Below, one piece after another: positions 36,455 to 51,131 of a stretch of DNA of 64,000 nt. Below the pieces are notes generated by a model. It was not told the origin of the DNA. It did no database searches and saw only the letters and a program-made list of their open reading frames with translations. Within the stretch, counting starts at the first letter, position 1, and each line of letters starts with the position of its first letter. The DNA is taken from contig JAFSAU010000016.1 in the NCBI GenBank assembly GCA_017442155.1, positions 1-64,000 of the forward strand, given 5' to 3'. The position numbers and the translations under genes are program-made. The stretch is from Clostridia bacterium. Lineage in GTDB: Bacteria; Bacillota; Clostridia; UMGS1883; UMGS1540.

Positions 36455-39400
36455 ATGCGCACAAAAAGAAGTATTGGATGGCTTTTAATTTTTGCAATGT
36501 TGTTGTCTTCGATAACGGTATTTGCGGCAGAAGGACAAGAGGCGATTCAAAATGGTTCCATGGAGACAATCGGAGCAGATGGATTTCCCTCTGCCTGGTC
36601 AATGGTTCGTGCAACAATAGGAGAAAATTTTGAAGTCACTAAAGATGCAAAAACAGGGAATGCTGCAATCCGCTTTTATGCAGATAAAGATTCTTTGCAT
36701 GCTGTGCAGACGATTTCAAATCTTGTATCAGGAGAAAGCTATACTGTGACGGCGCAGCTGAAGCAGGCTAAAGGAACCGGTGCCGCGATAAAGATTGAAT
36801 TCGCCAATGCCGCCGGAGAATCCATTTCCGATAAGGCAGTGTATCAGGCCTTTCGTGATGCAGGTGATGCGTGGACAAAGGTATCTGTACCTTTTACGAT
36901 GCCTTCTGATGCGGTAAGTGCCGTACTTATGGTTCGTTTGGTCGGCGGTGGTGATGTAACCTGGGACGATGTCTCCATCGTTGGTAAGCTGGGCGGCGGC
37001 TCTGCGACAAGCAAGCCCGTTACTCCGGCGGCAACTCCGGCTCCGACGGCCACACCCGTGCCGACATCTACACCGGCTCCTGTAGAAACAGATAAGATTA
37101 TGATTGCACCGACAGTTGAGCTTCGTGACGGAACGGCTTATTCGGTGGCAGAGCGCGAAAGAATAGATTTTCCTTTTAACGGCGTAACAGGTACTGCAGC
37201 GACAAAAGCTGTCGGCGAGCACGGTGATACAGAAATCATCATGAATGGCAGCTTTGAATATAAAACAGGTGCCGCTTTTTCAAATTGGGGCGTTGTTTCT
37301 GGCACGCTTGATGAGAAAGGGGCCTTTGTTGAAACAGCAGACGTAAAAGACGGCAAACAGGCACTTCGCTTCACATCCGATGCAAATGTACATATTGTTC
37401 AGGGAACAACGAAATGTACTGCCGGTGAATACGAACTTAGTGCGTGGTGTAAGAGAGTCTCCGAAACAGGTACGCCCGTAATATCACTTATGGTGTACTA
37501 TAAGAATCCATCTGATGGATTTTCTCTTGAAGCTAAGTCACGTCCGACACTCACTTTTGCGGATGCCCCTGTAGGAGAATGGGTGTTCCGTACATTCAAA
37601 TTCACCATGCCTGCTGAGGTGACGCAGGTTTCTATTTTGACCCGCCTGATGGGTGCCGGTGATGTTATCTTTGATAAGATTTCCTTAATCGGTCCGGCCA
37701 GGGAAGAGGTACTTGATCCCATGCCGGAATACATCCCACCGGCAGAGGGCGTTGAAAATCTCATCTATGATCCCGGCTTTGAAATGAATTCCTTTGAATA
37801 CATAGCACAGGCCGAAGAACGACTGAATGTCTGGTTTTCACGTTCTAATACCTTTGGCGGCTTCTGGGGGATTTCCTCGGACGAAGCACACTCTGGCAAT
37901 TCCAGTATGCGCCTGAAGTTCGAGGCTTCCACCTCCATGCCCTGGGTCGGACAGATTGTACCCGTAACGCCCGGACAGGAATACCAGTTCTCTGCATGGG
38001 TGAAGGTGGGAGAGGGTTCTCAGAGCTGGATGCGTCTGCAGGCGGATGCTTACTCCGGCGTGCAACAGACTTCAGAAACTTACATTAAAGACGGCCAGGC
38101 GAAAAATGACCCGTTTGTGATTGATAAATTTAATACGGAGTGGCAGCATGTAACCACTCGTTTCACACCGTATCCCGGTACAACGCACTATGCACTTTTG
38201 TTGCGCGCCGGTTCGGAATACCCGTATGAGATGTATATTGATGACGTGGAGTTCTTCCCGATCAGTACCGCAAACGAGGTTATGCATATGCTGGAAACCG
38301 ACGAGGTGTTCTACTATTCCGACTGGACGGGCAACGGCCGCGCGAACGTTTCAACTTATGTTGACCGTAAGCCCGAGCTTGCCGGCGCACCCATGCGCTT
38401 CCGTCTTTTAGACGGGGAAAGCGTTCTGAAGGAAGAGGTGGTAACGCTTACGCCGGAAGGAACAGGGGAATTCTTCTATGATTTGGACCTTCTTGCAGAA
38501 AAGAAGAAGGAATATAAAGTTGAGGCAAGGCTTTTAAATTCTGACGGCACGCCGACGGAGAACTTCCTCGAACGTATCATTTATAAGTACGACCGTCCTA
38601 CACTTCTGGACGAAAACATGAAGTTTATGACAAACGGCGGTAAGGTTATCAATTACGTACTGGCTCAGGGCTCGGTAGAAGAAGTTATGTACCGCGTTGG
38701 TGAGACGGGTGCAACGGTTGGTCGTGCTATTGGATCGGGGCGCACCACACTTCTTGAGAAGCTAGATATCGCCCAGGCAAACGGCATGATGGCAACAGTA
38801 ACGCTTTTCAACCACGAGGACATTCGAGATCCTGCAGTCCGTGAAAAAGTGATTGAAACTATTAATATTGCGAAGGACCATCCGGCACTGTTCGGCTGGT
38901 ACCTCTGGGAAGAGCCTTCTTTCAGCGGTGACAACATAGATTTGGATGAAAATATCCGTATTGGTACAAAACTGATAAGGGATATGGATCCTGATCATCC
39001 TATTGGTTCTGTTATATCGGAAGATGATTATTACGGACGCCTTGTAACCTATAATGACTGGATGGACCTTGACTGCTATCCGGCACAGGCTTACGACGGC
39101 AGAACGCAGTACATTGCTGATAATATGGCACACGCCATGGAGGTTTCAAATTGGCAGAAGAATATGTCAATCATGATTCAGGCCTTTGAATGGTTTGAAT
39201 ATAAACCTACCTGGGATGAAATGCGAAGCTTTATTTACCAGTGCTTCTTTGAAGGGTCTTCAGGCTTTAGTTTCCATACCTTTGGAAAGGAAGGCACTAC
39301 GGCTGAGGATGGAACAGCTGTTTTGGTTGGGGATGAACACTGGAATGCTATGGTTGATTCCCAGTGGGAATACGACTTTATGTTTGACCACTTTGTAAAC

Positions 39401-40234
39401 GAAAAGTATCCTTTATTTAATGAAGCAAGAACACCGGGCGTAAGATGGCGGCTTGCAGTTGTAGACGATGCGCTTTATGCAATTGTTCTGAATATGAATG
39501 ACACCGAAACTAACCACATTGACATTAAACTGCAAAGCTATGATGGTAAGGTAACCGTAAACGGCTTTACGGCAGAGCTTCTGGCCGGTGGCGAAAAGAC
39601 TACCTTGACTGGTGATGGTGATACCCTTTCTCTGGATGTTCCGGGCTTTGGCGCACTGCTTTATAAGATTACACCAAATACTCCCACGGATTTCTCGGGC
39701 GTCAAGGGTAGCCGTTTCCGTGACCTGTACAACCATGTCTGGGCAAGAGAAGCTATCATCAATTTGGATGAAGCCGGCATTGTAAACGATAAAAGTGCCA
39801 TTGCCTTTGGTGCAAAGGATAACATTACCCGTGGTGACTATGCTATGTTCCTTGTCCGCACTCTGGGACTGGCGAGTGATTCTACCGAAAACTTTGCCGA
39901 TGTAAAGCCTCATGCCGAGTATGCAAAGGAACTGGCAATCGGAAAAGCAACCGGTATTCTGCAAGGCGTAGGAGACAACAAGTTTAATCCTACGGCACAA
40001 ATTACCCGTCAGGATATGATGACAATGACTTCACGTGCCATGCAGCTTTCAGGGACTGCCGACCTTGCCCGATTTTCCGACAGCGGAAGTATCGCAGACT
40101 ATGCCGCCGCACATGTGGCCGCCATGGTTGCAGAGGGCCTCATTCAGGGAAATGCCGACGGCACCATTAACCCTCTCGGTAACACCACGAGAGCCGAAGC
40201 TGCTGTGATTATGTACCGAATTTTAGGAAGATAA
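36455..40234 (+). CDS. SLH-anchored multi-CBM protein with glycosidase-like barrel (giant C)
   Basis: The 1259-residue protein has a signal peptide (1-24), a carbohydrate-binding-like domain (about 28-180), a long Thr/Pro/Ala linker (about 185-220), two more binding-like domains (about 250-415 and 425-600), an Ig-like segment and the barrel (about 710-1010). The acidic pair E819-E820 lies in GWYLWEEPSFSG, so the paralogues' DEP is EEP here. The later barrel strand reads IMIQAFEWFEYKPTW. Three SLH repeats (about 1075-1259) close the protein. The linker suggests an O-glycosylated, flexible display. The next gene begins 18 bases downstream. Confidence 0.8.
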   Translation: MRTKRSIGWLLIFAMLLSSITVFAAEGQEAIQNGSMETIGADGFPSAWSMVRATIGENFEVTKDAKTGNAAIRFYADKDSLHAVQTISNLVSGESYTVTAQLKQAKGTGAAIKIEFANAAGESISDKAVYQAFRDAGDAWTKVSVPFTMPSDAVSAVLMVRLVGGGDVTWDDVSIVGKLGGGSATSKPVTPAATPAPTATPVPTSTPAPVETDKIMIAPTVELRDGTAYSVAERERIDFPFNGVTGTAATKAVGEHGDTEIIMNGSFEYKTGAAFSNWGVVSGTLDEKGAFVETADVKDGKQALRFTSDANVHIVQGTTKCTAGEYELSAWCKRVSETGTPVISLMVYYKNPSDGFSLEAKSRPTLTFADAPVGEWVFRTFKFTMPAEVTQVSILTRLMGAGDVIFDKISLIGPAREEVLDPMPEYIPPAEGVENLIYDPGFEMNSFEYIAQAEERLNVWFSRSNTFGGFWGISSDEAHSGNSSMRLKFEASTSMPWVGQIVPVTPGQEYQFSAWVKVGEGSQSWMRLQADAYSGVQQTSETYIKDGQAKNDPFVIDKFNTEWQHVTTRFTPYPGTTHYALLLRAGSEYPYEMYIDDVEFFPISTANEVMHMLETDEVFYYSDWTGNGRANVSTYVDRKPELAGAPMRFRLLDGESVLKEEVVTLTPEGTGEFFYDLDLLAEKKKEYKVEARLLNSDGTPTENFLERIIYKYDRPTLLDENMKFMTNGGKVINYVLAQGSVEEVMYRVGETGATVGRAIGSGRTTLLEKLDIAQANGMMATVTLFNHEDIRDPAVREKVIETINIAKDHPALFGWYLWEEPSFSGDNIDLDENIRIGTKLIRDMDPDHPIGSVISEDDYYGRLVTYNDWMDLDCYPAQAYDGRTQYIADNMAHAMEVSNWQKNMSIMIQAFEWFEYKPTWDEMRSFIYQCFFEGSSGFSFHTFGKEGTTAEDGTAVLVGDEHWNAMVDSQWEYDFMFDHFVNEKYPLFNEARTPGVRWRLAVVDDALYAIVLNMNDTETNHIDIKLQSYDGKVTVNGFTAELLAGGEKTTLTGDGDTLSLDVPGFGALLYKITPNTPTDFSGVKGSRFRDLYNHVWAREAIINLDEAGIVNDKSAIAFGAKDNITRGDYAMFLVRTLGLASDSTENFADVKPHAEYAKELAIGKATGILQGVGDNKFNPTAQITRQDMMTMTSRAMQLSGTADLARFSDSGSIADYAAAHVAAMVAEGLIQGNADGTINPLGNTTRAEAAVIMYRILGR

Positions 40235-42955: not shown

Positions 42956-42984
42956 TTGACAGAAAGGAGTTTTTGTGCTATGAT
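42956..42984 (+). promoter_or_regulatory. Near-perfect sigma-A promoter of a structured RNA
   Basis: TTGACA (42956-42961) and TATGAT (42979-42984) are exactly 17 bases apart, placing the start of transcription near 42991. It lies 27 bases past the stop of the N-terminal-SLH gene, so the downstream RNA and giant D are not dependent on that gene's transcription. Confidence 0.85.
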
Positions 42985-42990
42985 TAGAGA

Positions 42991-43224
42991 AAAGAGTAAG
43001 CTTTCACTGTTCTCTACTCTGAAAGACGCGGTATCCGGCGTATGCTTCCGTTTACGTGGCTACTTTGCCTCGGCTTCCCCAATGGCCGGGGGGAGAAATG
43101 TTGCCATTGTAGAAAAAACGGTATATGCACCCTGGGTACCCGACGAGACAAAAGCTCCTTTTGAGAAAGAGAGCATTTTAATAGAAAGGGACACTTGTGC
43201 ACTTTTGCACAGGTGCCCCTTTTT
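42991..43224 (+). ncRNA. Structured RNA: 6S-like RNA or cis-regulatory leader
   Basis: The approximately 234-nt transcript can fold as follows. An outer helix joins 43009-43015 to 43168-43174. A long arm stacks five helices: 43030-36/43134-40, 43038-43/43123-28, 43048-53/43116-21, 43057-63/43100-06 and 43074-80/43089-95. A small hairpin (43149-54/43158-63) sits on the 3' side of the bubble between them. A terminator ends it. Closing helix, asymmetric bubble with a 3'-side hairpin and a long apical arm recall 6S RNA, but I cannot confirm conserved 6S sequence. The terminator only 21 bases before giant D's ATG equally suggests an attenuator. Confidence 0.6.
43185..43224 (+). terminator. Intrinsic terminator just upstream of giant D
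   Basis: A 17-bp stem with one mismatch (43185-43201 with 43206-43222) is followed by a T run, then GAAAGGAG and the ATG of giant D. CTTTC at 43001-43005 could pair with GAAAG at 43184-43188 and so compete with the stem base. Confidence 0.85.
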
Positions 43225-43244
43225 ATGCTTTTGAAAGGAGCAAG

Positions 43245-46200
43245 ATGTTGAAAAAAATTGCAGTGTTCTTGTGCGTGATGCTCTTGTTCAGCCTTTGCGT
43301 ACCCGCTCTTGCGGCGGAAGAATCCATTTTCAAGGAAGAAATTGTAACGGAGTCTCAGTTTACACCGGGCATTGATTCCATAGAGCTGGTGTCAAATGGC
43401 AGCTTTGAAACACTGGCTTCCGAGACAACCTTTGACAAGTGGGGGATTGTCTGTACAGCAAAAGATGAGGCAGGGAATAGTCTTGGATACATTGGAAGTC
43501 CCTATGTAACTTTAAGCAGCGATGCAAATTCAGGCAATCGTGCACTTGGGCTTTCCTGCGTAAAAGGAGAGTATGTGCATGGGCTTATTGGTGTGACCCT
43601 TACACCGGGTGTTACATATGAACTTTCCGGCTATGCGAAACACGCAGGAAATCCCGGCAATGCTTTTTTGAGCATTATTATTAACGGAAAAGAGAATGGC
43701 GCAACGAAAGAACTCGGTCGTGTTAATCTTTCTTTTGCCGATATTCCTGCCGGTCAATGGGTAAAAAAAATTCTGCGTTTTACAGTACCTGAAAATGCAA
43801 CAGGTGGATCTCTTATGACGAGGGTTATGAGCGAAGGTACGATACTATGGGACGATATTTCCCTTCTGATGGAAGCAGATGAAATTCCGGAGCCGGTAAT
43901 TGTGGAAAAAAAGCCGTCCCTTGAAGATATTGATATTTCAAACTACGATTTTGAGGAGTATACCCCCGGTGTTCGGCCGGGCTGGTATTGCTACGGAGGT
44001 CAAAACGGTGAGCCAAACGGAAAAGCCGTAACCTTCTCATCAGAGTATGCAAAAAACGGCCGGAAAAGTGCCCGTATATCCGTAGAGGACGGCGCAGTGG
44101 ACCCCTGGGTTTCGCACAACGTTTCCGGCATTGTGCCGGGTGCAACCTATCAGCTTTCCGCCTGGGTGCTGACGCCGGACATAAACCGCGTGAATTTCAG
44201 CATCAGCGTGGAATGGTACACTTCGGATAAGCCGGATTCAAACGCAGTACAGGGCGGCAGTGCTAAGGATCACTGGTGGCTGACGCAGGATATGGAATGG
44301 CGTGAAATGATTCTGGAATTTGAAGTACCGGACAATGCCAAATCTGCTATTATCCGCTTCCGGAATTTCTCTGAAATCGGCCTTTTCCATTTGGATACCG
44401 TAACCATGTATATGGTAAAGCAACCGGATTACGCCTATGTGGAATCCGACGAAACCTTCTACTATACAGAATGGCCGACGGGTACGGTTACGGCCCTTGC
44501 GAATCCCCATTACGGCAACGAGCTTGACGGCGGACGTGCCGAATTTGCATTCGTGGATGCAAATGGAACAGAGAAATATCAGGAAACTGTACCTTTTGAA
44601 AATGGAGAAGCGGTATATACCCTACAGACAGCATGGCTGACGACAAAGGGAGAGGAATATAAGGTAAGAACCGAGATTTACAAGTCCGATAACTCCCTTG
44701 TGCAAGAGTCGGAAACATTGATTTACCGGTATGATCGTCCTACTTATTTGGGGGCAGACGGCATTTTCCGTAAAAACGGTAAGGAATATAACATTATTCT
44801 CGGGAACGGCGTAAATCAGGAACGTCTTTCCTGGGGTCCGGAGGAGGGCGGCGTTACAATTGTCCAGCTGGTTGCTGACTCGAATATCCCCATGCTGGAG
44901 AAAATGGACGCAGCCCATGCGCGCGGCTTGCTCGTTCTGGTTTCCCTGTATAACGGTGATATCTGCGCCGGCAGTGCGGAGCACGTGGAGTCCACAAAAG
45001 CGATGGTGGAAATGGTGAAGGATCACCCGGCCCTCTTTGGTTATAAGGTGCAGGATGAGCCGAATCAGAAGAATAATACGGACGAAGAGTTAGGTCGTGC
45101 GTATAGAATCATTCATGATCTTGACCCGAATCATCCGGTATACCTGGATGACTCCGGCTATGCCGGCTATGGACGCCTTTACCGCTTTGCTGATATTATT
45201 GATATTGATTATTACGGTGGCAGTGGTGCAGACTCCGGTCGGGTATTTACCACCATGATGGATCACGCTGCCGCAGCAACAAAGGGAAGAAAGCCCTTCA
45301 CACTCCTGCAGCAGGCATTTGTTTATAGGAATTATCTCCCCACCTTTAATGAACTGCGGCATTTTGCCTATCAGGCACTGTTTTCGGGTGCATCAGGGTT
45401 TGGATATCATTCCTTGGGCTCTGATGATGGCGTACAGGAAGTCTTTATGTCCCGTCCTGTCTGGGATGATATATGCGAAAAGTGGGTACCATGGGAACAG
45501 GACTTCCTGCTCGACGCCTTTGTAAACCATAAATACCCGCAGATAAATGCTTTTAAAGATTCTAATGCGATGTGGCGTACCTTTGCCGACGGAAACGACA
45601 TTTATGCTGTTGTCTTTAACCGCAATAAAACGGCCGTACACAATGTCTCCATTCCACTTATAGACGGCGAGGGCAAGGAAGTTGCAGGAGAATTTTCAGC
45701 CGTTCGTGTGGCCGGCGGCAGTGCGAAAACGGCCACGGGCGATGGGACACTTTCGGTTGAGCTTGGTGCACTCTCTGCTGAAATCTGGAAGATTACGCCT
45801 ACCCGGCCGATTGACCTTTCGTATTTGAAAACTACGTCCTATCGGGATTTGTCCGGTTACCCTTGGGCAAACAATGCAATAGCCTGTTTAGAAGAGGCGG
45901 GAATTACAAACAAAGTTTCTGACACCTGGTACGGTCCCGGCGAAAATATCACCCGTGGTGATTTCGCAATGTTTTTGGTGAGAACATTGGACCTGACGGC
46001 AGAAACAACGGAGAATTTCGATGATGTGGATGCAGATGCCGAATATGCCGAGGCGGTTGCTATCGGAAAGAAATTAGGGGTTTTAAACGGCACTGGTGAC
46101 GGTAACTTCAACCCGGAGGGCGAAATTACAAGGCAGGAACTTATGGCAATTACAGCCCGCGGCATGCGCCTTAAAAAGGGCATAGAGGAAGGAGCCAATG

Positions 46201-46388
46201 AAGACCTATCCGGTTTTTCTGACGCGTCCTCCGTGGCAGATTGGGCGGTACTGGATGTAGCCAGTATGGTGCGTCTCGGCGTGGTTCGTGGAAATGCGGA
46301 CGGTACTGTAAATCCGCTTGGAAATACGACAAGAGCCGAGGCTGCCGTCATCATGAACCGAGTGCTTTCCTGGGCCGGAGAGCCCTGA
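43245..46388 (+). CDS. SLH-anchored CBM protein with glycosidase-like barrel (giant D)
   Basis: The 1047-residue protein has a signal peptide (1-22), two carbohydrate-binding-like domains (about 35-210 and 225-405), an Ig-like segment (about 410-500), the barrel (about 505-805) with E605 in GYKVQDEPNQKN and LLQQAFVYRNYLPTF later, and three SLH repeats (about 850-1047). GAAAGGAG before the ATG at 43245 sets the start, just after a strong terminator. Compared with giants A and C it has a few extra C-terminal residues (SWAGEP). The reading frame continues open beyond the TGA into a 168-codon open frame. Confidence 0.8.
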   Translation: MLKKIAVFLCVMLLFSLCVPALAAEESIFKEEIVTESQFTPGIDSIELVSNGSFETLASETTFDKWGIVCTAKDEAGNSLGYIGSPYVTLSSDANSGNRALGLSCVKGEYVHGLIGVTLTPGVTYELSGYAKHAGNPGNAFLSIIINGKENGATKELGRVNLSFADIPAGQWVKKILRFTVPENATGGSLMTRVMSEGTILWDDISLLMEADEIPEPVIVEKKPSLEDIDISNYDFEEYTPGVRPGWYCYGGQNGEPNGKAVTFSSEYAKNGRKSARISVEDGAVDPWVSHNVSGIVPGATYQLSAWVLTPDINRVNFSISVEWYTSDKPDSNAVQGGSAKDHWWLTQDMEWREMILEFEVPDNAKSAIIRFRNFSEIGLFHLDTVTMYMVKQPDYAYVESDETFYYTEWPTGTVTALANPHYGNELDGGRAEFAFVDANGTEKYQETVPFENGEAVYTLQTAWLTTKGEEYKVRTEIYKSDNSLVQESETLIYRYDRPTYLGADGIFRKNGKEYNIILGNGVNQERLSWGPEEGGVTIVQLVADSNIPMLEKMDAAHARGLLVLVSLYNGDICAGSAEHVESTKAMVEMVKDHPALFGYKVQDEPNQKNNTDEELGRAYRIIHDLDPNHPVYLDDSGYAGYGRLYRFADIIDIDYYGGSGADSGRVFTTMMDHAAAATKGRKPFTLLQQAFVYRNYLPTFNELRHFAYQALFSGASGFGYHSLGSDDGVQEVFMSRPVWDDICEKWVPWEQDFLLDAFVNHKYPQINAFKDSNAMWRTFADGNDIYAVVFNRNKTAVHNVSIPLIDGEGKEVAGEFSAVRVAGGSAKTATGDGTLSVELGALSAEIWKITPTRPIDLSYLKTTSYRDLSGYPWANNAIACLEEAGITNKVSDTWYGPGENITRGDFAMFLVRTLDLTAETTENFDDVDADAEYAEAVAIGKKLGVLNGTGDGNFNPEGEITRQELMAITARGMRLKKGIEEGANEDLSGFSDASSVADWAVLDVASMVRLGVVRGNADGTVNPLGNTTRAEAAVIMNRVLSWAGEP

Positions 46389-46937: not shown

Positions 46938-46947
46938 TACAAACGTT

Positions 46948-46974
46948 CTCTCTTTTTGGGGAAGAAAAAGAGAG
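46948..46974 (+). terminator. Hairpin after the small in-frame gene
   Basis: CTCTCTTTTT pairs perfectly with AAAAAGAGAG around a GGGGAAG loop. No T run follows, so termination is uncertain. A second, imperfect hairpin with GCCC/GGGC lies around 47010-47034, close to the next ribosome binding site. Confidence 0.4.
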
Positions 46975-47062
46975 CAGTGTAATCCAAAACCTTCCCTTAC
47001 AATATTGTGAAACCTGCCCCACGCGGGCGTTTCAAATAAAATTTATTTTGGAGGAAAAAATT

Positions 47063-50609: not shown

Positions 50610-51131
50610 TTACGCTTCGGCTTCAATCAGGCCATAGTTGCCGTCTTTTCTTTTGTATACAATGTCAATTTTATCGGTTTCATCATTGTGAAAGACAAAA
50701 AATTCATGTCCGAGAAGATTCATCTGTAGAATGGCTTCTTCCGGGCTCATAGGCTTTAAGGCGTGCTTTTTGCTCTTCACAATTTTAAACTCTTTTTCCT
50801 CTGTATCTGACATTTCCGGTGCTGCAGTAAAGGCACCATCACGCAGTTTTTTCTCCAGACGTGTTTTGTTCTTGCGGATTTGACGTTCAATCAAATCAAT
50901 TGCACGGTCGATGGAAGCGTACATGTCTTCAGAGGTATCTTCTGCACGATACACAAACCCACCATAGTAGATTGTAAGCTCCGCCGTCTGTCTTTCTTTT
51001 TCTACTGACAGCGTTACCTGAGCGTCAGCGGCATCGTCGAAGAATTTGTCAAGCTTCAAAAGTTTTTTCTCCGTAAAACTCCGAATACCTGCACTAATGT
51101 CAATCTTTCTCCCCGTAATGTTAACCTTCAT
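50610..51131 (-). CDS. hpf: Long-form ribosome hibernation promoting factor
   Basis: The 173-residue protein dimerises 70S ribosomes into inactive 100S particles. The S30AE-type N-terminal domain (about 1-95, starting MKVNITGRKIDISAGIRSF) binds the decoding region. The C-terminal domain (about 115-173), with SPEEAILQMNLLGHEFFVFHN, makes the dimer contact. AAGGAGTG precedes the ATG. The gene has a terminator and stands alone. Confidence 0.96.
   Translation of the reverse strand: MKVNITGRKIDISAGIRSFTEKKLLKLDKFFDDAADAQVTLSVEKERQTAELTIYYGGFVYRAEDTSEDMYASIDRAIDLIERQIRKNKTRLEKKLRDGAFTAAPEMSDTEEKEFKIVKSKKHALKPMSPEEAILQMNLLGHEFFVFHNDETDKIDIVYKRKDGNYGLIEAEA

Follow-up and report, generated by a model that had tools for sequence, protein, structure and literature searches.

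UCCC loops serve as the seed of several small RNAs (sRNAs) in low-GC Gram-positive bacteria, and for one of them, LhrC, the site of action is the ribosome site of an mRNA encoding a surface protein (PMC4132741). The locus examined here was located between two surface-protein genes in a 64 kb stretch of DNA from a Clostridia bacterium; the whole of this stretch is called the window. The locus is interpreted as encoding a structured, free-standing small RNA of ~230 nt, which would act in trans and would belong to an undescribed, lineage-restricted family, and the probability of this interpretation is estimated at about 0.52. It is very probably a real RNA gene and probably encodes an ordinary kind of regulator. 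As judged by sequence comparison, the family has two known members and matches no known RNA family. The positions of all features are given in Table 1.

Table 1. Features of the small RNA locus and of the gene that follows it (window coordinates).
Feature	Position	Strand	Remark
Promoter, sigma-70-type, TTGACA-17-TATGAT, with TG before the -10 element	42956..42984	+	11/12 consensus match
Small RNA transcript including terminator, ~230 nt	42991..43224	+	Predicted from promoter and fold
Conserved 5' block AGCUUUCACUGUUCUCUACUCUGAAAGAYGCG; opens single-stranded, remainder is 5' strand of base helix	42999..43030	+	31/32 identical in G004:C61:7966-7997
Long irregular arm	43027..43146	+	Stem in both members; sequence and length divergent
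Apical loop UCCCCAAU (window; UCCCCCAAU in homologue), proposed seed	43076..43083	+	Unpaired probability ~1.0 in both
GCUCCUUU, exact complement of downstream Shine-Dalgarno	43154..43161	+	Window copy only, possible cis effect; 22/1000 shuffles as long
Conserved 3' block CUUUUGAGAAAGAGAGCAUUUUAAUA, 3' strand of base helix	43158..43183	+	Pairs with 5' block
Intrinsic terminator	43183..43224	+	Homologue has its own terminator, unlike in sequence
Downstream Shine-Dalgarno	43233..43240	+	Predicted paired in read-through RNA (unpaired probability of 43234-43241 <=0.06)
Gene for an SLH plus CBM_4_9 surface protein of 1047 aa	43245..46388	+	Not counted in the RNA gene

A promoter-driven, terminated structured RNA had been proposed by a sequence-only reading of the locus, and this proposal is supported by the pairing kept in the homologue described below and by the lack of a conserved reading frame. 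The promoter it had named was confirmed. Across the 64 kb window, counting both strands, only six sites matched the consensus in at least 11 of 12 positions, and each of the two tRNA genes in the window was preceded by one of the other five. The strength of the RNA promoter was that of the tRNA-gene class. Transcription would start at approximately 42991, and the RNA from there to 43224 (234 nt) folded at −90.1 kcal/mol, compared with −64.2 kcal/mol (sd 5.0) for dinucleotide shuffles (z −5.2; 0/200 as good). Without the terminator, the z value was −3.3 against mononucleotide shuffles; the terminator stem amounted to −25 kcal/mol, with the U tract next to it. The closing helix, 3'-side hairpin, irregular arm and terminator described in the sequence-only reading were reproduced as the minimum-energy structure, and the ribosome binding site placed right after the terminator corresponds to the Shine-Dalgarno sequence of Table 1. 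The CTTTC/GAAAG switch put forward in the same reading was rejected: the complementarity is present, but it comprises only 5 bp, costs ~5 kcal/mol when forced and is absent from the homologue, and the switch is thus neither stable nor conserved.

When 60 related genomes were searched at the DNA level, one true relative was found, at G004:C61:7966-7997 (contig JAQXGO010000061.1), where the 5' block was matched in 31/32 nt (E 2.1e-8). The host is a Clostridia metagenome-assembled genome of the same family as that of the window but of a different genus. The homologue is flanked by a CobB/CobQ-like glutamine amidotransferase gene (Pfam GATase_3) and by argC, which was named from its translation; no surface-protein gene adjoins it, and the gene contexts of the two copies are different and non-syntenic. 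Taken alone, the homologue locus folded with a z value of −7.3 into a nearly continuous helix without a central bubble. It is followed by its own terminator, by a separate TATAAT promoter-like sequence and then by argC. The block of the homologue begins where the preceding gene has its stop codon, and no good promoter was found upstream of it; hence, this copy may be processed from that mRNA.

The comparison of the two members shows, at the level of sequence and predicted fold, a family of structured RNAs in which the end blocks and the C-rich tip are constant and each copy has a terminator. When the 3' strand of the base helix was shuffled, pairing as good was obtained in 0/2000 cases for the window RNA and in 5/2000 for the homologue. 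The apical loop UCCCC(C)AAU is common to both RNAs and is predicted to be fully unpaired, and a loop shared this well occurred in 1/1000 shuffled arm pairs. Covarying base pairs, the search for which had been suggested by the sequence-only reading, were found in the alignable part of the arm, where no pair was broken and seven were kept through changes on both sides; with the partners slid by 1–3 columns, the number of both-sided changes was 0 or 1. In the alignment of the window RNA with the homologue, 97.9% of the cells paired. The covariation test was based on two sequences, a coarse shuffle control (8/500) and an alignment that leans towards the model, and the support for the pairing is therefore good, not overwhelming.

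The distribution of the RNA was explored with covariance models and sequence patterns. The first covariance model (R1, with a short arm) missed the window copy, whose arm is longer. The model R2, built from the full window RNA alone and its predicted fold, picked out the homologue (E 5e-7 in the carrier genome) and no other locus among 28 genomes of the order. The RNA is single copy in each carrier genome; it was not found in the same-genus genomes, and a pattern search of the rest of the order gave no further copy. Only the two copies were recovered with a 25-mer allowing 3 mismatches in 391 genomes of the class, and only the homologue with an exact 19-mer in the GTDB species genomes (~85,000 species); with 3 mismatches, the 19-mer gave nine more matches in the order, all within long reading frames. 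No match to the RNA was obtained by BLAST against phages and plasmids, no copy by pattern searches of IMG/VR viral contigs, and no occurrence of the 5' block by a text search of papers. The amidotransferase loci orthologous to that of the homologue, in relatives including the window genome, were without the RNA. The unrelated positions of the two copies indicate that the RNA gene moved, or was gained and lost.

Matches of the DNA search at G004:C90 and G020:C17 were rejected as homologues because only promoter or spacer sequence was shared. At G004:C90:6936-6985, what looks like a promoter precedes a T-box-like leader, with a trpB-like gene behind it, and only the promoter and the start are common to the window region. 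Within the window, the hairpin CTCTCTTTTTggggaagAAAAAGAGAG at 46945-46977, 3' of the next coding frame, is probably a terminator and matched the base-helix model by chance. Further along the window, a gene at 50610-51131 on the minus strand resembles a ribosome hibernation factor (HPF/RaiA), as judged by eye from its translation.

The relative lies beside unrelated genes and keeps the base helix and the exposed C-rich loop, so the locus most likely encodes a free-standing RNA regulator, as opposed to a switch of the surface-protein gene. Transcription would be driven by the strong promoter at 42956; in the RNA, the loop would be presented by the long arm, and the ends would be protected by the base helix and terminator. 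The UCCCC(C)AAU loop may then base-pair in trans with target mRNAs at G-rich ribosome-binding regions, the mode of action documented for LhrC and other UCCC-motif sRNAs (PMC4132741), and the pairing would lower the translation of the targets. The single-stranded start AGCUUUCAC could perhaps also pair with target mRNAs. The exact complement of the loop was present nowhere in the window except in the RNA itself, and GGGGGA before ATG occurred at chance level, with no target evident within the window.

Several other explanations were considered for the locus. The conserved sequence could belong to a small protein gene, namely an 85-codon frame with an ATG at 42980 after the ribosome-site-like AGAAAGGAG, which is open to 43234; read this way, the single nucleotide by which the two 5' blocks differ leaves the amino acid unchanged, and the block would translate as LSLFSTLKDA in both genomes. 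However, the corresponding frame of the homologue has a stop directly before the block (the TAG of the amidotransferase gene), has no start and closes soon after. The ATG overlaps the promoter -10 element and lies upstream of the predicted transcript start, no Pfam family was matched, and the arm alters length and frame while its pairs are kept. A coding frame, barely credible on these grounds, was rejected for want of a matching reading frame in the homologue; conservation of the amino-acid frame in place of the pairs had been named in the sequence-only reading as evidence against an RNA, and the homologue keeps the pairs and not the frame. The long irregular hairpin, free terminator and strong promoter would also suit an RNA-polymerase-binding 6S RNA, either a second one or a divergent one, a likeness noted in the sequence-only reading but not upheld. 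No Rfam family was found at gathering score in the window region or at the homologue locus, relaxed thresholds gave only chance matches in the window region, and the RF00013 covariance model had no match there at any E value up to 10. Moreover, each carrier already has one canonical 6S RNA and one only, at C26:82150-82345 in the window genome (80 bits) and at its own locus in the homologue's genome (81 bits). The missing central bubble in the homologue, together with exactly conserved end blocks and a C-rich tip that are not 6S features, makes this explanation very unlikely. A relic of a small mobile element, bounded by imperfect terminal inverted repeats and with the hairpin conserved at the DNA level, would account for the patchy, non-syntenic occurrence in two genera and the absence from same-genus genomes, and the end blocks are inverted repeats. 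It is nevertheless improbable given a single copy per genome and no transposase neighbour, and the terminator of each copy, the conserved unpaired tip and the compensatory stem changes point to RNA. It is somewhat less improbable, though still doubtful, that the RNA is a horizontally moving, portable regulator, in which the 5' block, the C-rich tip and the 3' block are contact surfaces kept near letter for letter while stem length is free, and which here also controls a member of the surface-protein family.

The position of the RNA suggests a leader or attenuator of the surface-protein gene, in which most transcripts would end at the terminator and, in the read-through RNA, GCUCCUUU would cover the Shine-Dalgarno sequence. 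This explanation is possible but unlikely. In its favour, the start codon lies ~20 nt past the terminator with no promoter between, and the anti-Shine-Dalgarno is an exact match of 8 nt (22/1000 shuffles as long) whose site is predicted to be paired in the read-through RNA. Furthermore, the pairing of the 3' part of the window RNA with the 5' region of the downstream gene ranked 2 among 47 starts, which were chosen automatically and some of which are wrong. On the other hand, the context of the homologue differs and contains no anti-Shine-Dalgarno, and argC has its own promoter-like sequence after the homologue terminator. The closest paralogues of the downstream gene, within the same genus, have no such RNA upstream, and a scan of GTDB contigs for relatives of the downstream protein gave no confirmed loci. 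The best antiterminator partner was no better than shuffled sequence (fraction 0.55), and no Rfam riboswitch was matched. The attenuator or riboswitch suggested by the sequence-only reading is accordingly not retained as a conserved function, the homologue preceding argC with its own terminator and the paralogues lacking the RNA. The downstream gene can be reached only by read-through or from an unseen promoter, and hence an added local effect on it is possible in the window genome; since the homologue has no GCUCCUUU, such a cis effect would be particular to that genome. The SLH plus CBM_4_9 family is itself hugely expanded, with 78 matches in the 2.43 Mb genome (window members at 36455-40234 and 43245-46388), compared with 39 and 35 in two relatives and 1–2 in two other genera of the family.

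The interpretation as a free-standing small RNA adds an undescribed small-RNA family, whose structure has comparative support, to what metagenome assemblies have revealed of a Clostridia lineage. It also illustrates that neither a 6S-like appearance nor a location immediately in front of a gene is a safe guide. If the loop controlled members of the expanded surface-protein family of this genome, it would provide a handle on the bacterial choice of surface enzymes.

The locus was finally compared with known systems. Like attenuators and riboswitch leaders, it consists of a promoter, a structured RNA and a terminator followed by the ribosome site of a gene; unlike them, it has no conserved downstream gene and no antiterminator above chance, and the homologue is insulated from argC by a terminator and a promoter-like sequence. 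The long irregular hairpin and similar length are shared with 6S RNA (RF00013), whereas the lack of an Rfam match, the homologue without a central bubble and the true 6S RNAs elsewhere in both genomes separate the two. Compared with LhrC of Listeria monocytogenes and the other UCCC-motif sRNAs RsaE, SprD, FsrA and RNAIII, the window RNA carries a single C-rich loop, placed at the end of a long arm, instead of three sites, no sequence relation was seen, and its two-member family lies outside the Bacilli; with all of these sRNAs it shares an exposed UCCC-containing loop and a terminator of its own.
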